64,000 nt of DNA from Rufibacter radiotolerans (GTDB lineage Bacteria > Bacteroidota > Bacteroidia > Cytophagales > Hymenobacteraceae), in the NCBI RefSeq assembly GCF_001078055.1, contig NZ_CP010777.1:186001-250000 (forward strand). The letters are read 5' to 3'. The notes below the pieces were generated by a model. It made no database searches, was not told the DNA's origin, and saw only the letters and a program-made list of their open reading frames with translations. Every line of letters begins with the position of its first letter. Within the stretch, counting starts at the first letter, position 1. Positions 39,671-51,799 of the stretch are shown piece by piece. The position numbers were made by a program, and so were the translations under genes.

Positions 39671-39883
39671 TTAGTCCTTTAGCTCGGTAGCGGTAAAGCC
39701 GGCACCCTGCACCGCTTTGATCACGGCTTCAGAGGTGGCATCTCCTTCAATGGTCAGGATTTTGTCTGGGTTGTTGGTGTCTACCTCCCATTTATAGATA
39801 CCCGGCGTTTTGTCCAGCACAGGGGTAACGGTACTGATACAGCCACCGCACTTAATATTGGTTTTGAATTTCTGAGTACTCAT
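39671..39883 (-). CDS. Small heavy-metal-associated (HMA) domain protein
   Basis: The 70-residue protein is one ferredoxin-like HMA domain (KFKTNIKCGGCISTVTPVLDK..AVIKAVQGAGFTATEL). The metal motif is KCGGC rather than the usual MxCxxC, keeping the two Cys. It probably ferries Cu(I) to the CopA pump encoded 68 bases upstream. It has a terminator after it and is the last gene of the copA unit. Confidence 0.9.
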   Translation of the reverse strand: MSTQKFKTNIKCGGCISTVTPVLDKTPGIYKWEVDTNNPDKILTIEGDATSEAVIKAVQGAGFTATELKD

Positions 39884-39951
39884 ATCAATTAAGATTTAGG
39901 TTTTAAAATTAAGAAGGACTGCTCAAAAGCAATCAGCAATTGAACAATCAA

Positions 39952-42189
39952 TTAAAGCTTCAACGTGCGCAGGCGCAAACTGTTGGTGACCACAGACACA
40001 GAGCTAAGGGCCATGGCCGCGCCGGCAATCATGGGGTCCAGCAGGAAGCCCCAGATAGGGTAGAGCAAGCCCGCCGCCACGGGTATACCTATCACGTTAT
40101 AGATAAACGCCCAGAACAGGTTCTGGTGGATAGTGCGTACAGTGGCCTTGCTCAGTTTTATGGCCTTGGGAATGGCCCGCAGGTCTGAGTGCATAAGCGT
40201 GATTTTGGCTACGTCCATGGCAATGTCGGTGCCGCGGCCCATGGCAATGCCCACGTCTGCCAGGGCCAGCGCCTGCGAGTCATTGATACCGTCGCCTACC
40301 ATGCCCACCACGTGGCCCTGTCGCTGGAGCTCCTGCACAAAGTCGCCTTTGTCCTGGGGCATCACCTCGGCTTTGTAGTGTTGTAGCCCCACCTGTTTGG
40401 CCACGGCCGCGGCGGTCTGGGCATTGTCGCCGGTGAGCATGTAGACTTGTAGCCCCAGGTCCTGCAGGTCTTTCACGGCTTGCGCCGAGGTGTCTTTAAT
40501 GGCATCGGCAATGGCAATGAGCGCCACCACCTGGCCCTGAGTTCCGGCAAAAACCACGGTCTTGGCCTCGGTTTTGAGTTTCTGAGCCGTTTTTTCCAAA
40601 TCTGCCCTAAACTGGAGGTTGTTCTCCTGCATGAGTTTCTCGTTGCCCAGCCAGAAGGTGTGGCCCTGGTACTCCGCCTGCACGCCCCGGCCGGTAATGC
40701 TTTCAAAATGCTCCAGCGCCGCCGGTTGCACGCCTTGCTCTAAAAGGTACTTAGACACAGCCTCGGCCAGCGGGTGCTCACTTTGGTTTTCAATGGCGAG
40801 TAACACGCCGGCCAACTCCGCCTGGGCCGCTGCAGGGACCGTCCATTGCAGCTCGGTGACTTCGGGTTTGCCCTTGGTGATGGTGCCGGTTTTGTCCAGC
40901 ACGATGGCCGTGAGTTTGTGCGCCAGTTCCAAGCTCTCGGCGTCTTTGATCAGAATCCCCTGTTCAGCCCCGCGGCCTACGCCCACCATAATAGCTGTGG
41001 GCGTGGCTAGCCCCAGGGCGCAGGGGCAGGCGATAATGAGCACCGTAATGAGGGCCAGCAAGCCGTGGGTCATGTTGTTGTCGCCGCCCAGGAAGTACCA
41101 ACCCGCAAAACTCAGCAAGGCAATGACAATGACCACGGGCACGAAGATGCCGGCGATTTTATCCGTGAGTTTCTGCACGGGGGCTTTGGAGCCCTGCGCT
41201 TCCTGCACCAGTTTAATGATCTGGGCCAGAAGCGTCTGGGCGCCCACTTTCTCCGCGGAGATCTGCAGGCTGCCTTTCTGGTTGATGGTGCCTGTGAAGA
41301 CCTGGTCGTCTTTGGTTTTCTGCACCGGAATCGGCTCGCCGCTAATCATGCTCTCGTCCAGATAAGAAGAACCGCTGATCACGCGGCCATCTACCGGGAT
41401 CTTTTCGCCAGGGCGGATAATCAGAACATCACCCACCAGCACCTGTTCAATAGGCAGTTCTATTTCCTGCCCGTTGCGCAGCGCTTTTACTGACTTTGGT
41501 TGCAGTCCCATCAGTTTCTTAATGGCTCCCGAGGTTCTGGACTTGGCTCTTTCCTCCAGCAGTTTACCCAGCAAGATAAAGGCAATAATCACCGTGGCGG
41601 CCTCAAAATACACGTGCGGCTCCAGGCCTCTGGATAGGAAAAATTGGGGGTAAACGGTGTTGAAGACACTGAACAGAAACGCAATGCCGGTGCTCAGGGC
41701 CACCAGGGTGTCCATGTTGGCTTTGCCGTGACGGGCCTGCTTTACGGCGTTCACAAAGAAGCTGCGGCCAAACCAGAACACCACCGGAATGGTAAGCGCC
41801 AGCATAATCCAATTGCCGTAGGGCAGGTGATGAAAGAACATGCCAATGACGACCACCGGAATGGATAGGGCCACCGCCCAGATGGTTTTATGCTTGATGG
41901 CCGCATAGGCTTCCTGCTCGCGGGCCTCTTTGGCCTCGGGGGTGGCTTCCTCTTTCTGAATGAGCATGTCATAGCCCACGCTCTGTAGGGCTTGCTGCAG
42001 CTTGGCCAGGTCGGTGCCCGGGGCATACTCCACCAGCACCGTTTTGCCGGCGAAGTTCACGGCCGCGCTCTGCACGCCTGGCTGGGCCTGGAGCATAGAC
42101 TCCACGCTTCCAGCGCAGGCCGCGCAGGTCATGCCCTCTACCGGGAAGGTGTCTTTGATGGCCTTTTTAGTTTTCTGTATCGTTTCCAT
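39952..42189 (-). CDS. copA: Copper-exporting P1B-type ATPase
   Basis: The 745-residue pump has one N-terminal HMA domain ([10 protein letters not shown], Cys22 and Cys25), eight membrane segments, the metal-binding CPC motif ([12 protein letters not shown]), the phosphorylation site DKTGTIT, the HP motif SEHPLAEAV, and the hinge [16 protein letters not shown]. It moves Cu(I) out of the cytoplasm. It heads a short unit with the small HMA protein. A -7 element is at 42224-42231. Many shadow frames run on the opposite strand. Confidence 0.97.
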
Positions 42190-42223
42190 TTTCAGGAGGA
42201 TGTATCGGTTTCAGGGTACAATA

Positions 42224-42231
42224 CAAAGATA
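42224..42231 (-). promoter_or_regulatory. Predicted -7 element of copA
   Basis: TATCTTTG on the minus strand, 34 bases before the copA ATG. A mirror plus-strand TATCTTTG lies 33 bases away at 42264-42271, which is a possible antisense start. Confidence 0.5.
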
Positions 42232-42283
42232 CGGCCCACAAGGGCGGCGGCGTTACAGCTTTGTATCTTTGTTTTACAAAATT

Positions 42284-43354
42284 CTATGCCAACCGCTGCG
42301 CGAGGAAGTGCGCGTCCCGACCGGCGCCCAACAGTAACGCGGAGCTTCGGCTGCGCTGCCACTGTAACCCCAGGTAAAACAACCCAGCCACCGGACTGAT
42401 GCCCTCCTGGTGCAAGGGTTGGCCACCTGGGTCCAATGCGTTCTTGACCTGCAACCAGCTATAATCAGATTGGAAACCCGTGCACCAAACTATGCTGGAA
42501 AAGGCGGTATTGCTCCCATCCTGAAACAGCGCCTCTGGTACGTTAAACCTGGAAAGCTCTGGCCGCAGCGTTATGGATTTTTTCTGAAGGGCCTGCTCCA
42601 GTTCCCGCCCGTAGATCACATCCGTCTGCCGGAGCATCTTCTTGCCCAGAAAAGAATGGGGCGGTGCGAAGATGGCCCCGGTTTTAGTAGCCCACCAAAA
42701 CACGCTTTTACCCAACTTCCGGAGCGAGGAGAACCTTGGGGGTTTCCTGACGGATAGATTTACCTCATGTGTTTGGCTGAGTTCCACGGTAATCTGCGCC
42801 CCCGAGTTTCCCGCGCCCACCACCAGCACCTTCCCGGGGGGCAGTTGCCCCGGTTCCTGGTAAGCGGAGGAATGCAGCTGCAGAATTCCGGAGGCTGGGG
42901 CCGGGGAGAAGGTTGGCACGAAAGGCGTCTGGAAAGGTCCGGTGGCAATAATCACCTGCCTGGCCTGGAAAACCTGCTGCTGCGTCTGCACCTGAAAAAT
43001 GCCTCCGTTTTTGGTAAGGGCGCTAACCGTTTGGTTTAATAGCACGGGTAACTGAAAGTGCCGGGCGTATTCTTGCAGGTAGGTGGCAATCTGGTCTTTG
43101 GTGGGGTAAGTGCCGTTGGGCGAGGAAAGCGGCCAGCCCGGCAAATGGCAGTACGCCGCCGGTGTGAACAGCCTCAATGACCTGTACCGCTCTGCCCAGG
43201 ACTGGCCCACGGCTTTATTCTTGTCCAAGAGCAGGAACCGTTTGTCTTGCTGCTGGAGATAATATCCCATGGCCAAACCGGCCTGACCGGCACCAATGAC
43301 CAGGGCATCATAGACAGGGCTTTCAGTAGAAGAAAGGTGGGTGGGTTGCATCAC
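42284..43354 (-). CDS. Flavin-containing monooxygenase-like oxidoreductase
   Basis: The 356-residue protein has two dinucleotide-binding motifs: VIGAGQAGLAMGYYL (FAD, about residues 20-34) and VVGAGNSGAQIT (NADPH, near 175-186), and ATG-type GPFQTPFVP between. This matches the flavin monooxygenase group with pyridine-dependent oxidation. It lies between the copper ATPase and copper-binding genes, so it may act in metal or thiol stress, but this is inference. A -7-like TACTTTTG is at 43374-43381. Confidence 0.88.
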   Translation of the reverse strand: MMQPTHLSSTESPVYDALVIGAGQAGLAMGYYLQQQDKRFLLLDKNKAVGQSWAERYRSLRLFTPAAYCHLPGWPLSSPNGTYPTKDQIATYLQEYARHFQLPVLLNQTVSALTKNGGIFQVQTQQQVFQARQVIIATGPFQTPFVPTFSPAPASGILQLHSSAYQEPGQLPPGKVLVVGAGNSGAQITVELSQTHEVNLSVRKPPRFSSLRKLGKSVFWWATKTGAIFAPPHSFLGKKMLRQTDVIYGRELEQALQKKSITLRPELSRFNVPEALFQDGSNTAFSSIVWCTGFQSDYSWLQVKNALDPGGQPLHQEGISPVAGLFYLGLQWQRSRSSALLLGAGRDAHFLAQRLA

Positions 43355-43513: not shown

Positions 43514-43551
43514 TTGGGGCTGTCTTGGAAAAAAACAGGCTTAAAACGCTT
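43514..43551. repeat. Dispersed palindromic repeat, copy 11
   Basis: TTTGGGGCT GTCTTGGAAAAAAAC AGGCTTAAAACGC, sitting beside the terminator and touching the last codons of the four-helix protein gene. Confidence 0.65.
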
Positions 43552-43924
43552 ATTCAGATTCTGAGGCGGCGGCCAGAATGGCGCTGAGGCTATCAGTTTT
43601 AGGAATGAGGTCCTTACACACTTCTACGCAATGGCGGCAGGTTTCGGCGCAGGCCTGGCAATGGTCATGGGCGTGGCGTTCACACTCTACGGCGCAGGCC
43701 TCGCAGATCTCAACGCATTGGCGCACCACTAGACGGGCATGCTCTGAGCCTTTAGACAAAAACGAGGCGGTGAGGCTGCAGTAATCGGCGCAGTCCAGGC
43801 TCAGGTGAATGCAGCGGGCCATCTTTTTGACATCGTCTTCCTGCAGGCAGGCGGTGGCACAGTGGTCGCAGGCGGCAATACAGGCCAGCAACGCATCAAT
43901 CGCGGGTTTATACTCAGTACGCAT
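43550..43924 (-). CDS. Cys-rich four-helix bundle copper-binding protein, paralog 1
   Basis: The start is ATG 43924 (MRTEYKPAIDALLACIAAC); the longer frame upstream is low-complexity shadow. The 124-residue protein has a regular Cys pattern on helices: ACIAACDHCATACLQ, RCIHLSLDCADYC, QCVEICEACAVECERHAHDHCQACAETC. This is the DUF326 family, the four-helix copper storage proteins related to Csp, which bind many Cu(I) ions. No signal peptide, so it is cytoplasmic. A second copy is at 45169. Confidence 0.92.
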   Translation of the reverse strand: MRTEYKPAIDALLACIAACDHCATACLQEDDVKKMARCIHLSLDCADYCSLTASFLSKGSEHARLVVRQCVEICEACAVECERHAHDHCQACAETCRHCVEVCKDLIPKTDSLSAILAAASESE

Positions 43925-44022: not shown

Positions 44023-44961
44023 TCAATGGTAGGCCCCGGCATCGGCGCAGGCGTGGCCGTCGGGACCGCGTTCCACCTGCAGGGTCACGTGGTTCAGGTG
44101 GAACTCCTCGTGGAGGTGCGTTCGGATCTGGGCCAGTTGGTCTTCCTTGTACTGCTCGTCTACCACTAGGTGGGCGGTAAGGGCGTTCTCGGTGCTGCTC
44201 ATGGCCCACACGTGCAGATCATGGATTTCGGCCACGCCGGAGATGCTTTTCAGGTAGTTTCTGATAGCCTCCAGATCAACGCCCTGGGGTACGGCATCCA
44301 GGGTAAGGTGCAAAGACTCCATTAAGAGGCTCCAGGTACTCCAGACAATAATAGCCATAATAACCAGACTGATGACGGCATCTATCCAGAACCAATTGGT
44401 GTAGAAAATAACTATCCCGGCCGCCACTACGCCCAGGCTCACTAGCGCATCGGCGGCCATGTGCAGGTAGGCGCCTTTCACGTTAATGTCATGTTCTTTG
44501 TCCCGGAAGAAAAGCAGAGCGGTGCCGGCGTTGATAAAAATGCCAATGCCGGAGACAATGGAGATGGCGGTCCCGTTCAGGGCCGGGGGTGCGCCCAGAC
44601 GCTCTATGGCCTCCCAGCCAATGGCGCCCACGGCCAGCAGCAACAGCACCGCGTTCAGCAAAGAGACCAATGTGGTACTTTTCCCGAAGCCGTAGGTAAA
44701 GCGGCCGGTGGGTTTGCGCTTAGAGATCTTGAGCGCGAAAAAAGCGAGCAACAGACTGATGACGTCTGTGAAATTATGCCCCGCGTCTGTGAGCAGCGCC
44801 AGCGAATTGTACCACCAACCGGCCCCGGCCTCTAGCACCACAAACAGCACGTTCAGCCCAATGCCCACCAAGAAGGCGGTGTTCAACCTACCCGAGGCGG
44901 GCAAGCCGTGGCTGTGCCCATGGGAACCGTGCGCGTGGGAATGTGAATGGGTTTCTGCCAT
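44023..44961 (-). CDS. Cation diffusion facilitator (CzcD/ZitB-like)
   Basis: The start is ATG 44961 (MAETHSHSHAHGS), after which a His-rich tract follows (HSHSHAHGSHGHSHG). The 312-residue protein has six membrane segments with the zinc-site motifs SLALLTDAGHNFTD (TM2) and HMAADALVS (TM5), and a C-terminal cytoplasmic domain (SSTENALTAHLVVD). CDF proteins export Zn2+, Co2+ or Cd2+ by proton antiport. It sits in the leftward metal island, 60 bases from a dispersed palindrome. Confidence 0.93.
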   Translation of the reverse strand: MAETHSHSHAHGSHGHSHGLPASGRLNTAFLVGIGLNVLFVVLEAGAGWWYNSLALLTDAGHNFTDVISLLLAFFALKISKRKPTGRFTYGFGKSTTLVSLLNAVLLLLAVGAIGWEAIERLGAPPALNGTAISIVSGIGIFINAGTALLFFRDKEHDINVKGAYLHMAADALVSLGVVAAGIVIFYTNWFWIDAVISLVIMAIIVWSTWSLLMESLHLTLDAVPQGVDLEAIRNYLKSISGVAEIHDLHVWAMSSTENALTAHLVVDEQYKEDQLAQIRTHLHEEFHLNHVTLQVERGPDGHACADAGAYH

Positions 44962-45123
44962 GGCCAACTAAAAGAGATGTGGGTTGTACGCTAGAATTAG
45001 TTTCTGGGGCAAAGAAAACGGTCCCTGTCTGCAACGGCGTTATATGATTCTGTTGCCGGTTAACAAGATTAGATGCGCGGGAAAAAGACCATTTCTAAAA
45101 ATCAGGACCGGCCCTAAAAAGAA

Positions 45124-45168: not shown

Positions 45169-45498
45169 TTACGCAGCCAATGACCGGCAGGCCTCTGCGC
45201 ATCTGCGGCAGGCTTCGGCGCAGCGTTGGCAGTGCTCATGGTGGTGCTTACCGCATTCAGCGGCGCAGGCCTCACAAACTTCCATACATTCACGTAATAG
45301 ATGTTTGCCGTGCTCAGAACCGCGGGCCAGCAGCGTCATGGTCAGTTTGCAGATATCGGCGCAGTCACGGTCCAGCTGAATACAGCGGACCATCATCTTC
45401 ACGTCTTCTTCCTGCAGACAGGCGGTGGCGCAGTGCTCACATTCTAAGATACACGCCATGAGCGCGTCAATGGCTGGTTGGTTTTGTGAATTGTGCAT
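45169..45498 (-). CDS. Cys-rich four-helix bundle copper-binding protein, paralog 2
   Basis: The 109-residue protein starts with MHNSQNQPAIDALMAC and repeats the pattern of its paralog at 43550: ACILECEHCATACLQ, RCIQLDRDCADIC, ECMEVCEACAAECGKHHHEHCQRCAEAC. The Cys spacing is nearly the same and the two share most core positions. It probably stores Cu(I). The presence of two divergent copies in one island hints at different loading or expression. Its terminator is at 45124-45144. Confidence 0.9.
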   Translation of the reverse strand: MHNSQNQPAIDALMACILECEHCATACLQEEDVKMMVRCIQLDRDCADICKLTMTLLARGSEHGKHLLRECMEVCEACAAECGKHHHEHCQRCAEACRRCAEACRSLAA

Positions 45499-45659
45499 AG
45501 TTCAGAGTTTTATAGGTGAAACTTGATAAGCACACTCACGCTCTATTTAATACCTGTGGCCGCCTCAGAAAGAAACAAAGCCAAAAGGTAATAGGGGTTT
45601 ACGCCCAAAAGCAGGCAGCCGTTTTATAAAATTAAAAGCAAGGTGTACAGAATTCCTTT

Positions 45660-46229
45660 CTAGGCCAGGCTGTCCAGGGGAAGGCGGTCTACCGAAGGGG
45701 CTTTCTTGTAGTCTGTCACCGAGACGCCGGTGACTTTCTTGAACTGGTTGGAAAGGTGTTGCACGCTGCTGTACTGCAGGCGGTGGGCAATCTCACTAAG
45801 GGTAAGCTGGCCGTAAGAAATGAGTTCTTTCACGCGCTCAATCTTTAACCGGATCAGGTATTTCTCCAGGGTAGTGCCGGTGTGCTGCGAGAACACCTTG
45901 CTCAGGTGCTGGTAAGACATGCCCAGTTTCTCAGACAGGTACACAGACGTGGTCATGGGCTGGTACTCCTCCTCCAGCTGGCGCTGGTACTCCAGCAAGG
46001 TGGTTTTGATAAGATCGGTGAGTTGTTCGTCTTTTTCCTGGAGCAGTTCAAAGCCGTGGGCCTGCAGCGCCTCAGAAAGCGCCGGTACATTCACTTTCTT
46101 CTCAGTGGTCACGGTGGCTTCGCCGAGTTTCACGTCCTGTACGGTAAGGCCCTGGCCCGTCAATACCTCGGTCACGGTAGCAATGCAGCGCGGGCAAACC
46201 ATGTTTTTGATATGAAGGTGCTGTTCCAT
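45660..46229 (-). CDS. HMA-like metal domain fused to an AraC-type DNA-binding domain
   Basis: Residues 1-70 look like a ferredoxin-like HMA domain (LHIKNMVCPRCIATVTEVL, Cys12 and Cys15, and ALQAHGFELL). Residues about 97-180 are a complete AraC C-terminal domain with two helix-turn-helix units (LSEKLGMSYQHLSKVFSQHTG, LSEIAHRLQYSSVQHLSNQF). It is 189 residues long. A sensible reading is a one-component regulator that senses copper by its own HMA domain and controls the nearby metal genes. This is inference from domain order and context. A promoter-like TTTG-N17-TACCTTTT lies at 46242-46270. Confidence 0.8.
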   Translation of the reverse strand: MEQHLHIKNMVCPRCIATVTEVLTGQGLTVQDVKLGEATVTTEKKVNVPALSEALQAHGFELLQEKDEQLTDLIKTTLLEYQRQLEEEYQPMTTSVYLSEKLGMSYQHLSKVFSQHTGTTLEKYLIRLKIERVKELISYGQLTLSEIAHRLQYSSVQHLSNQFKKVTGVSVTDYKKAPSVDRLPLDSLA

Positions 46230-46241
46230 GGGGTTAACGTC

Positions 46242-46270
46242 AAAAGGTACTCAGGTGCTAAAATAACAAA
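46242..46270 (-). promoter_or_regulatory. Possible promoter of the HMA-AraC regulator
   Basis: On the minus strand TTTG at 46270-46267 and TACCTTTT at 46249-46242 are 17 bases apart, a fair match to the Bacteroidetes consensus, 12 bases before the ATG. Confidence 0.4.
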
Positions 46271-46311
46271 GAAAACCCCAAAGAAGTGCACTCGCCTTTT
46301 TCCCGGGTCTG

Positions 46312-46614
46312 CTAAGACTCCCGGGTGCGTACCCGGGGAACGTTCCTTTTAGGGGCTGACGAGACCACTTTAGGCTTCTTGCCCGAAAACCGCATAAACG
46401 CCCAGTTCACCGTGGGCACAATCACAAACGCAGTACCGGCCATCAGGATGAAAATGCCCAGAAACGTGTTGAACAGCCTGAAAATGAAATCATCGGGGAA
46501 CCCGAAGGTGTACAGGATCAAGGCCATGGACAGCAGCATACTGATGAGGGCGGCAATGAGCAGGTCCCGGCGCCAGTACCGCTGGAAGGGGTGTCTCTTA
46601 ACAGTCTTCGCCAT
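46312..46614 (-). CDS. DUF2798-like small membrane protein
   Basis: The 100-residue protein has two membrane segments (DLLIAALISMLLSMALILYTF and LFNTFLGIFILMAGTAFVIVP) and a basic C-terminal tail (KKPKVVSSAPKRNVPRVR). The layout fits DUF2798, but the call is tentative. It is 2 bases after the thioredoxin-like gene, so the two are translated together. Confidence 0.55.
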   Translation of the reverse strand: MAKTVKRHPFQRYWRRDLLIAALISMLLSMALILYTFGFPDDFIFRLFNTFLGIFILMAGTAFVIVPTVNWAFMRFSGKKPKVVSSAPKRNVPRVRTRES

Positions 46615-48655: not shown

Positions 48656-49711
48656 TTATCTGAAATAAAAGCCGTTGGGCAAGATACGTACCTGGAACGA
48701 GTCAATAGCGGCTCCGCCGGTAGGCTGATAACGCACGGCCCAGCCATTGGAAGAATAACCGCCCACCCCTAGGTAGAGCGTTCCGGTTTCGGGGTCAATG
48801 CCCAGGCCGTAAGGGTCGCGGTGCAGAAGGGGGGTAGTGGAGGCCGCGGTGGCGCTGGTAGACATGGCATATAGCTTGCCGTTGTAAGAATAAAATAAAG
48901 TGTTTTTAGCGCCATTAATCACCAATTGCCCGGCGCTGCTGGTTCCTGCCGGGAAGTTGAAAGTGGTAAGGGCATTATTATTGGCTGGGTCGATTTTAAC
49001 CAAAGCCCCGGGACCGGAATAACCGCCTCTTAAAACCCAGATTTTATTGTTGCCATCCAGCACCAGGTGTTTGGGGGCTTGTCCTACGGTAAGGGTGGTT
49101 TCCACTTCATCAGAGGTGGTATTGATGACCGAAACCGTGTTGCCATCACTGTTGGCCACGTATAGTTTTCCGTTGTAAAGCAACAGTCCTTCCGGCAACA
49201 GACCTACGTTAATGGTTTTGGTAACGGTGTTGGTAGCCAGGTTCAGGACAGATACCCGGCCCGTGCCGGTATATCCCTGAAAGCCATACCCCACATATTC
49301 GGTCACGTAGGCTTTGGTGGCATTAAGGGCCGCCATGTACCGGGGAATTTTCAAGCCATTGATTACGCCAACAGAGGCAAAGGTGTTGGCATTGACTACC
49401 TCAATTTTCTCACTGTTGTTCACCGCTATATAGGCCTTGTCTCCTACAAACATTATGGACTGGCCGGCATCGCCCAGAGGACGGCCGTTTACTTGTTTGA
49501 ACACTTCTGGCGAAAAGGTCTTAGCATCGCGGGAGAGGTAGCTCACCTCAGAGGTAGGGGTGCCAAAGCCGCCTTCGTTCAGGATAAAGACCCCTTTTTC
49601 ATAGGCGCCCTTTGGGGCTTCATTGGGCTCGTCCTCCTTGTCGCAAGAAGTCAGGAAAAGGCCTCCCAGCAAAAGGAAGGGAAGATACTTTTTAAGCATG
49701 GGTACTTTCAT
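48656..49711 (-). CDS. Beta-propeller surface lipoprotein, BtuG-like
   Basis: The start is ATG 49711 (MKVPMLKKYL) or ATG 49699; both give the lipoprotein signal MLKKYLPFLLLGGLFLTSC. The mature 330 residues are a YncE-type beta-propeller (for example SEKIEVVNANTF, KLYVANSDGNTVSVINTTSDEVET, WVLRGGYSGPGAL). It lies 35 bases after the BtuB-like receptor gene, which is under a cobalamin riboswitch. In Bacteroides thetaiotaomicron the propeller lipoprotein BtuG binds B12 very tightly and hands it to BtuB. By context and fold this is the same role; the residues that bind B12 cannot be checked here. Confidence 0.8.
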   Translation of the reverse strand: MKVPMLKKYLPFLLLGGLFLTSCDKEDEPNEAPKGAYEKGVFILNEGGFGTPTSEVSYLSRDAKTFSPEVFKQVNGRPLGDAGQSIMFVGDKAYIAVNNSEKIEVVNANTFASVGVINGLKIPRYMAALNATKAYVTEYVGYGFQGYTGTGRVSVLNLATNTVTKTINVGLLPEGLLLYNGKLYVANSDGNTVSVINTTSDEVETTLTVGQAPKHLVLDGNNKIWVLRGGYSGPGALVKIDPANNNALTTFNFPAGTSSAGQLVINGAKNTLFYSYNGKLYAMSTSATAASTTPLLHRDPYGLGIDPETGTLYLGVGGYSSNGWAVRYQPTGGAAIDSFQVRILPNGFYFR

Positions 49712-49746
49712 AGTTGATGGTGGATAGAAGAAGAAAACATATTGAA

Positions 49747-51678
49747 TTAAGGGTGTGTGGCCCATTTAAGGGAGAGTGATAGCCTGAATGAACGGGACGG
49801 CATAGCCCGGAACGCCATGGTCTGGTAGGTGGTATTGGTAAGGTTCTGCACATGGGCCATGAGTTGCGCCTCCATAGTGCGCCAGGTAAAGGCCTTTCCC
49901 AGACTGGCATTGGCCAGGGCATAGGCAGCAAGCCAGTTGTTGTTGTCATTATCTGAGAAGCGCCTATCAGTAAAGGCGGCATCCATAGACAGCCACCACG
50001 TCTGGAACCGAGCTTCGGCCCAGCCGGCTACCTTGTGTTTGGGCACATAGAAAAGTTGGCGGTTGATGAAGTGCGCCCGCGCGTCTGGCAGTTTCTGCTG
50101 CGAGATGGTGTAGGCATAGGCGGCCCCGGCAGACAAGGCTGTTTTCTCTGATGCCTGGTAATGCCAGCGCGAATCCAGTTCGGCGCCATGCCCCAGCACC
50201 TGACTCAGGTTGACCGGCTCTGAATAGCCGGCCGTGGCGGGTTGCCATTGAATCCAGTCCTGCACCCGCAGGCGGTAAACGGTGGCCTCTGTTTTTCCAG
50301 TGACGGCTTTTCGCTCGTACTGGTGCGCCAGCCCGGCTTCATATCCCCAGCCGTTTTCGGGCTGTAAGTTAGGGTTGCCGCCGGGGCGCCAGAAACGGTC
50401 ATTGAGGGTAGGCACCCGGTAGCTGCGCGACACGTTGGCTTTGGCGGTGAGGGTGTGCTGCGGCGTTTGCCAGATATGGTAGTTGGCGCCCAGCGTGGGG
50501 GTGAGGGGAGGGTTAAAGCCTTTCACCCAGGCCTGCCGCAAATTCAGGCTCAGTTGCAGTTGGGGCAGCGGGTCATACCTTAGCCAGCTGTAGACTGAAA
50601 AGCGCTGCTCCTGAATGGCGCCGCCGTACTCCTTCATATTGGCCTGGAACAACTGCCCTTCCGCGCCCACCTGTAACAGCAGGTTTGGCCGCAGTGCCCG
50701 TTCATGCTCCAGCTGGCTTTGGTAGGTATGTACCTTGGAGAGGGAAAGAACCCCATCGTCCTGGAAATCCAGGCGGTCCTGGAAGTAGGCGACCCGGGCG
50801 GTGGTGGTGCCTCTGGCCACCTGTCCCTGCCATTCGCCCATCAGGCGCAGGTTCTCATCATGCTGCCGGGCGTGGGTATTGGCGCTGCCCATGGAAGGCT
50901 GTATTTGCCGGTCGGTCTTCACGTACCATCCCCTCACAGAAACCCGGTGGTCTTGATTGATTTTATAATGCAGGTCCTGGGCCAGGCTGGTTTGCGAGAA
51001 GGCGGCGTTCTGCTGGGTTTCATAGGGCTGACCGAAGACGGCAGTATTCCGGAATCTAAAATCATTATCTGCCGCAGTGCGCGTAAACGAGGAGGAGAGC
51101 GCCAGGCGGCCATTGGAAAAAGCGCCCTGGGCGGCGGTGCGGCGGTGCCCGAAACTGCCCGCTTCCTGCTGTACCTGCACCTGCCGGAGCGGTCGGAAAG
51201 ACGCCGGGTTTTCCAGCACCACGGCCCCGCCCAGAGAGCCGCTCCCGTGCAGGGCGCCGCTGGGCCCGTGCTGCAGGTGCACCGTGGCGTTGGCCGACGG
51301 CGGCAATAGCGCGAAATCTGAGAGACCCAACGTAGGCAGCGCAATGTTGAACCCGTTCCAAAGCACGGCGGTGTGGCTGGCGGTGGTCCCCCTGAACGCA
51401 ACGGTAGCGGTCATGCCGTTGCCATAGCTCTTGAGGTACAGGGGGCTGCGCTGCTGGAGCACCTCGGCCAGGGTAATGCCCGGCTGGCGCTGCAGCAAAA
51501 GGGAGTCAAGCGTCTGGGTGCGGGAACCGGCGGCATATTTTGAATACCGGTTGCCCGAAATGGTTATTGTCTGTAGTTGCACCGTGTCTGGCGACACCGC
51601 CTGGGCCATAGCCGACGGCAGAGACAGAGCCTGGGCAGCCATACTCACCAACGCGCATAAAACAAGACAACGTACCAT
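49747..51678 (-). CDS. btuB: BtuB-like TonB-dependent cobalamin receptor
   Basis: The start is ATG 51678 (MVRCLVLCALVSMAAQAL), which gives a signal peptide ending in SAMA or AQA; a GTG at 51738 would be within the predicted leader. The 643-residue protein has a TonB plug (ITLAEVLQQRSPLYLKSYG, TAVLWNGFNIALPT, GALHGSGSLGGAVVL) and an antiparallel barrel ending in SFRLSLSLKW. The cobalamin riboswitch upstream assigns the substrate. A surface lipoprotein partner follows in the same unit. The size is similar to E. coli BtuB (614 residues). Confidence 0.92.
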   Translation of the reverse strand: MVRCLVLCALVSMAAQALSLPSAMAQAVSPDTVQLQTITISGNRYSKYAAGSRTQTLDSLLLQRQPGITLAEVLQQRSPLYLKSYGNGMTATVAFRGTTASHTAVLWNGFNIALPTLGLSDFALLPPSANATVHLQHGPSGALHGSGSLGGAVVLENPASFRPLRQVQVQQEAGSFGHRRTAAQGAFSNGRLALSSSFTRTAADNDFRFRNTAVFGQPYETQQNAAFSQTSLAQDLHYKINQDHRVSVRGWYVKTDRQIQPSMGSANTHARQHDENLRLMGEWQGQVARGTTTARVAYFQDRLDFQDDGVLSLSKVHTYQSQLEHERALRPNLLLQVGAEGQLFQANMKEYGGAIQEQRFSVYSWLRYDPLPQLQLSLNLRQAWVKGFNPPLTPTLGANYHIWQTPQHTLTAKANVSRSYRVPTLNDRFWRPGGNPNLQPENGWGYEAGLAHQYERKAVTGKTEATVYRLRVQDWIQWQPATAGYSEPVNLSQVLGHGAELDSRWHYQASEKTALSAGAAYAYTISQQKLPDARAHFINRQLFYVPKHKVAGWAEARFQTWWLSMDAAFTDRRFSDNDNNNWLAAYALANASLGKAFTWRTMEAQLMAHVQNLTNTTYQTMAFRAMPSRSFRLSLSLKWATHP

Positions 51679-51799
51679 ATCCTCGGCCAATAGCAGAGGA
51701 GACCAGAACGAGAGAAATAAACGAAAACGCCAGCCCACTTGAAGGGGCCACCATCCTTGCTGCTTTTTTTCCCGAAAGCCTCCAAGTGTGTATGTAAGA

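Follow-up and report, generated by a model that had tools for sequence, protein, structure and literature searches.

A widespread AraC-family protein with an HMA-like domain is a candidate copper sensor of Bacteroidota

In a stretch of 64,000 nucleotides of the Rufibacter radiotolerans chromosome (hereafter the window) we found a gene (45660-46229, reverse strand) encoding a 189-aa protein that looks like a widespread, so far uncharacterised copper sensor switching on export genes in Bacteroidota. Judged by its sequence and predicted fold, the protein is a member of the AraC family whose sensor domain is of a new kind; if the function holds, it would represent a new family of copper sensors. 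We consider it probable that this regulator acts as a one-component, Cu(I)-responsive activator of copper export genes.

The gene was delimited as an open reading frame and assigned by Pfam, by a profile of its family and by its predicted fold. Its AraC part (about residues 93-177; 45699-45953, reverse strand) scored well over the Pfam cut-offs (PF12833 69.8 bits, cut-off 33.6; PF00165 49.5 bits, cut-off 26.6), and a PF12833-type domain was present at E<=0.01 in 41/41 relatives. The N-terminal domain (residues 1-63; 46041-46229, reverse strand) reached 15.7 bits against the HMA family PF00403 when the whole protein was searched and 18.6 bits when this piece was searched alone, both under the cut-off of 24.8. 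A PF00403 match at E<=0.01 was found in just 2/41 relatives, and 9 of 15 N-terminal pieces searched alone reached E<=0.1. Since the single-sequence score lies under the cut-off we term the domain HMA-like, and for the same reason the protein is annotated in sequence records merely as an AraC family or helix-turn-helix protein. A profile built from the 41 relatives matched solved HMA domains (7xuk, several repeats of ATP7B, 1.9e-12; 1p6t, 2.6e-6; CopZ 1k0v, 2.2e-5; 2qif, 2.3e-5) as well as the AraC domain structure 6swi (4.9e-11).

The AlphaFold2 model was confident over the full length (pLDDT 94.7, pTM 0.86). Its N-terminal elements (strand 2-8, helix 13-25, strands 29-34 and 37-41, helix 48-56, strand 61-63) gave the beta-alpha-beta-beta-alpha-beta fold of HMA domains, and residues 1-63 superposed on CopZ 6ff2 with Z 9.1 and rmsd 2.0 over 63 aligned residues. 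A predicted linker helix (residues 66-87; 45969-46034, reverse strand) is followed by the AraC helices, with residues 67-186 showing the seven-helix fold with two HTH units (MarA 1bl0: Z 14.0, rmsd 2.3, 113 aligned). Foldseek was concordant with the assignment to a CopZ-like and a MarA-like fold. The earlier note had described the HMA-like domain as directly joined to the AraC units; profile and model bear out the fusion, but not the direct junction, as the helix of 22 residues lies in between.

Regulator matches were found in 199 of 200 genomes drawn from the family of the window (E<=1e-15) and in 57 of 118 genomes drawn from the phylum, covering 40/67 genera (E<=1e-30). The architecture is therefore common in Bacteroidota and not unusual for this gene, as had been supposed. 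The best 80 relatives on genome contigs came from organisms named Bacteroidota, Balneolaceae or of Ignavibacteria type. Among 72,556 plasmid records, 30 matched at E<=1e-20, and these carried ten genus names which we take to be all Bacteroidota.

The putative Cu(I) site is the motif MVCPRC (residues 10-15; 46185-46202, reverse strand) with Cys12 and Cys15. The 140 best-matching loci encode 131 distinct proteins, all of which contain MVCxRC, and M10, V11, C12, R14 and C15 were invariant in alignment A1. In view of this conservation and of the spread across family and phylum, we rejected both a one-off fusion and a frame artefact. In a wider set the motif was found in 121/135 proteins; the Cys pair was absent in 13, and one relative (L163) reads NMACNCC at the metal site.

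Within the window the regulator gene lies in a copper island on the reverse strand. Domain searches matched all the members claimed earlier, namely the P1B Cu-ATPase gene copA (39952-42189; TIGR01511 618.7 bits, cut-off 397), a CopZ-like HMA chaperone (39671-39883; PF00403 43 bits, cut-off 24.8) and two DUF326 copper-storage-like proteins, csp1 (45169-45498) and csp2 (43550-43924). The island further encodes a CDF cation efflux transporter (44023-44961; PF01545 136.4 bits) and, between csp2 and copA, an FAD-dependent oxidoreductase (42284-43354; PF13738 130.1 bits). Directly upstream of the regulator lies a gene for a 100-aa membrane protein (46312-46614) with a weak DUF2798 match below the cut-off, and a similar gene was seen in 19/80 loci. 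A beta-propeller-like gene and a TonB receptor gene (48656-51738, identity judged by eye) are also situated near the regulator and recur in many Hymenobacteraceae loci.

The link to copA, which the earlier note had proposed to look for in other genomes along with the architecture, was found in a large part of the phylum. With Cu-ATPases defined by TIGR01511 at E<=1e-120, 42 of the 57 phylum genomes with the regulator encoded one within 10 kb of it, where uniform placement would give 0.9, and 34/57 within 3 kb (0.3 expected); 14/18 families took part in this linkage. Of 100 regulator matches in these 57 genomes, 45 were linked, with the Cu-ATPase gene downstream on the same strand in 41/45, and 55 had no Cu-ATPase match within 10 kb. 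Clusters of neighbouring genes comprised multicopper oxidases, CusB with a heavy-metal-binding domain, DUF3347, CopZ and DUF326 proteins. On annotated plasmids the regulator was found beside RND efflux, SCO, cupredoxin, bilirubin oxidase, four-helix bundle copper protein, multicopper oxidase and P-type ATPase genes. Chromosomal loci of Hymenobacter were conserved and mostly had no copper linkage. Family profile, predicted fold and a linkage to copper export that reaches far beyond the window thus support the proposal that the regulator is self-contained and senses through its HMA-like domain.

ArsR-like and MerTP-like genes adjoin the regulator at L112, which carries two regulator copies, and at L116, and these loci might be mixed-metal islands. 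Such neighbours at two loci would suit a sensor of the same kind whose signal is a different soft or borderline metal (Ag, Zn, Cd or Hg) or more than one metal. CxxC-bearing HMA domains are known from proteins for Zn, Cd and Hg, and the structure and profile matches of the HMA-like domain include ZntA 1mwy and MerP 1osd. A CDF gene that bears a candidate operator (see below) points the same way; CDF transporters often export Zn or Co, not Cu. We nevertheless regard another metal as unlikely, as the genes around the regulator mainly encode multicopper oxidases, copper-binding proteins and P1B Cu-ATPases that pass the TIGR01511 cut-off, and the MVC motif is without the Asp of the Zn-type GMDC.

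Control by CueR or CsoR would be the default explanation for a copA gene, and it was rejected for R. radiotolerans, whose genome showed neither a CsoR-family match nor a CueR match (CueR searched at E<=1e-10). Across the 57 phylum genomes bearing the regulator, five had CsoR-family proteins and none a CueR that passed its cut-off (147.4 bits); 8/57 had a CueR-like MerR protein that scored below this cut-off at more than 100 bits. The regulator has 36 NCBIfam matches, and CueR (TIGR02044) is missing from the best 25 of them. In a survey of marine bacteria, which included few genomes from this phylum, the copper regulators reported for Bacteroidota were exclusively of the two-component and ECF types, with no homologue of CueR, CsoR or CopY (PMC10141476). 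The occurrence of the regulator in 57/118 phylum genomes fits this gap.

A comparison of promoters yielded a candidate operator in which the direct repeat AATnnTRTAAC occurs twice at a spacing of 21 bp. In the window and in 15 genus mates, the copA promoters have in common both repeats and, at a near-fixed distance, an element resembling TAnnTTTG, the consensus of the -7 promoter element, while the spacers vary; in the row for L170 the -7 distance was lost to a second TGTAACG further down. In the window the candidate copA operator (42252-42283, reverse strand; box 1 42273-42283, box 2 42252-42262, 21 bp apart) is followed after 20 bp by the promoter-like -7 element TATCTTTG (42224-42231, reverse strand). 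We searched 60 whole genomes of the family with a pattern made of the downstream repeat and the TAnnTTTG-like element and obtained 32 sites in 24/60 genomes, against one site for the reversed pattern. Exactly one site was present in 12/14 genomes of the genus, and in R. radiotolerans the sole match was the copA promoter. Thirty of the 32 sites were fetched, and 24 of these, in other genera too, lay directly before a Cu-ATPase or copZ-like gene, judged by eye from the N-terminal sequence; the remaining six preceded other, unclear or non-copper genes. The upstream repeat, which was outside the search pattern, stood in 24 training sites at a period of 21 in 20 cases, 22 in three and 20 in one.

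An operator matrix trained on Hymenobacteraceae only was then applied to upstream regions of the genus at a score threshold of 8. Sites preceded copA in 16/16 loci (12 of 16 in the training set), the CDF gene in 14/15 and the FAD oxidoreductase gene in 10/14. Only 4/16 loci exceeded the threshold before csp1 and 1/14 before copZ, and none did before csp2, the regulator or the upstream membrane gene (0/16 each). Because the genus copA sites overlap the training set, independent testing relies on the CDF and FAD genes and on the other families. The best site of the window was the copA operator, itself a training site (score 31.3). The second-best in the 64 kb was that of the CDF gene (45039-45070, reverse strand; score 16.3), and a weak candidate before csp1 (45623-45654, reverse strand; score 6.8) ranked third among the 21-bp-spaced sites. 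Three gaps had been proposed earlier as binding regions: 42190-42283 does contain the strong candidate operator, 39884-39951 and 46230-46311 contain no site, and the CDF-gene site lies outside all three. We rejected the latter two gaps as target sites, given that 1/14 copZ and 0/16 regulator upstream regions exceeded 8. Upstream regions of csp1 (45499-45659 in the window, and relatives) share other conserved words, GGCGTA and AGAGTGTG; CACTCTTT, a pattern that differs from the operator, recurs upstream of the regulator.

Outside Hymenobacteraceae we scanned the 250 bp after the regulator in 55 dereplicated loci (of 79), counting the Cytophagales MAGs L087 and L098, which carry no family name, as outside. 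A site with 21-bp spacing was found in 21/55 loci, and each of the alternative spacings between 14 and 32 yielded 1 to 5; with a threshold of 12 the numbers were 17/55 and 0 to 2. Controls on the same loci gave 2/55 upstream, 3 on the reverse strand and a mean of 0.56 in shuffled sequences (maximum 2 in 50). With the family-trained matrix at the threshold used, 34/55 of these loci had no site, and none was seen downstream of the regulator in 28 Hymenobacter and Adhaeribacter loci. An iterated matrix, whose set partly recruits itself, reached 32/55 loci, with 1 to 10 at other spacings; strict TAnnTTTG stood at the expected distance in just 7/32 of these sites (control 0.3%). The control windows for the iterated-set and paralogue scans were mostly coding and less A+T-rich than the tested intergenic stretches, so the spacing series and the shuffles are the fairer controls.

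Eight relatives were wholly without CxxC (L148-L155; e.g. L150:4060-4623) and had an N-terminal domain of HMA length, and three others had MVS in place of MVC (L162, L164 and L227). These 11 formed one group in the tree, with support of 82/92, which is not strong, and in 78% of bootstrap trees; judged by sequence, the MVS variants are possible intermediates of metal-site loss. The Cys-less paralogues are like the regulator in their equal length, AraC domain and N-terminal domain, which aligns with the HMA-like domain (hhalign probability 97.7). They differ in the lost CxxC and in their partners, as the two fully tested loci adjoin a response regulator and/or a histidine kinase. By Pfam, the paralogue gene is followed by a receiver domain in L150 and, with a weak match, in L153; in L149 and L150 it adjoins a CHASE3-PAS histidine kinase. 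At other Cys-less loci neighbours were judged by gene size alone, and a kinase-sized pattern was not found at L151 and L153-L154. A CusB-like gene lies close to the paralogue in L155. No Cu-ATPase match was located within 20 kb of the 11 Cys-less and MVS relatives, some of whose contigs carry no such match at all. The branch fits a sensor domain that may have lost its metal site and swapped partners while the DNA side was retained.

We infer that Cu(I) is the signal and that the regulator binds the candidate repeat. The repeat might instead be bound by another regulator that follows copper genes, with the HMA-AraC protein acting elsewhere. Such a binder would account for the absence of the repeat from the regulator's own promoter in 16/16 genus loci and for Hymenobacter, which retains the regulator without the repeat. 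Against it, the repeat co-occurs with the regulator: a search of the 118 phylum genomes with a strict two-box pattern returned 20 sites spread over 18 genomes (6 for the control, 4 of them in one genome), namely 17/57 genomes with the regulator versus 1/61 without (Fisher p 1.3e-5, relatedness ignored), and 13/20 had a regulator or Cu-ATPase match no more than 2 kb away. In the iterated set the repeat sits a median of 10.5 bp after the regulator stop codon, and 4/11 Cys-less or MVS paralogues (L153, L154, L148 and L227) have it upstream of their own gene. These observations make another binder quite unlikely.

Under the preferred reading of a Cu(I)-responsive activator, the N-terminal HMA-like domain would bind Cu(I) via Cys12 and Cys15 of MVCPRC, and this binding would alter how the pair of AraC domains is seated on the two 11-bp direct repeats. 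The domains would lie on one face of the DNA, as the repeats are two helical turns (21 bp) apart, and the downstream repeat would take the expected place of the -33 promoter element, as in class II activation. The regulator would target copA and the CDF gene, and in relatives also copZ and further export genes, presumably by activation rather than repression. Either an HMA dimer bridged by Cu or a turn of the linker helix might pass the signal on, and the chaperone might deliver the copper, perhaps by CopA-type docking as proposed in the earlier note; both steps are speculative. A repressor released by copper would be compatible with a downstream repeat that overlaps the expected contact region of RNA polymerase, but 21-bp repeats touching the expected -33 region resemble a class II activator layout such as AraC I1-I2, and repression is in our view distinctly improbable. 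That the CxxC pair, which can form a disulfide, is a thiol redox switch on which copper acts through oxidative stress alone is highly improbable despite the presence in the island of an FAD oxidoreductase, whose gene has a candidate operator in 10/14 genus loci, as the domain has a CopZ-like fold and the linkage is to copper export and not to peroxide or thiol genes.

More broadly, we lean towards the view that the regulator represents the missing cytosolic copper sensor of Bacteroidota. It would be a separate metalloregulator family that arose when an AraC activator, equipped with a 21-bp direct-repeat operator of its own, took on a copper-chaperone fold as its sensor; a Cys-less branch of this family would later have switched to two-component signalling and kept the same operator class. 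Among the papers from non-subscription journals listed by a literature search, none was recognised, from its title or the opening of its abstract, as describing an HMA-AraC regulator. The candidate operator makes copper sensing in Bacteroidota open to a direct bench test, and the HMA-AraC domain pair might serve as a modular copper reporter.

The regulator shares its proposed role in copA and copZ control with the repressors CsoR and CopY, whose folds are unrelated and of which the CsoR family occurs in 5/57 regulator genomes. With CueR of the MerR family it shares the proposed role of a one-component cytosolic Cu(I) sensor activating copA, although fold and operator are unrelated and CueR is absent over cut-off from 57/57 regulator genomes. 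It resembles AraC/XylS regulators (MarA, AraC, YesN-type) in the DNA-binding domain with two HTH units and in a candidate operator of direct repeats two turns apart, but has neither cupin arm nor receiver domain; its sensor is a metal-chaperone fold of 63 residues. CopZ/Atx1 and the HMA domains of CopA/ATP7B have the fold of regulator residues 1-63 with CxxC at the start of helix 1, whereas the domain described here has MVCxRC and not GMTCxxC, scores under the Pfam HMA cut-off and is fused to a DNA-binding domain.
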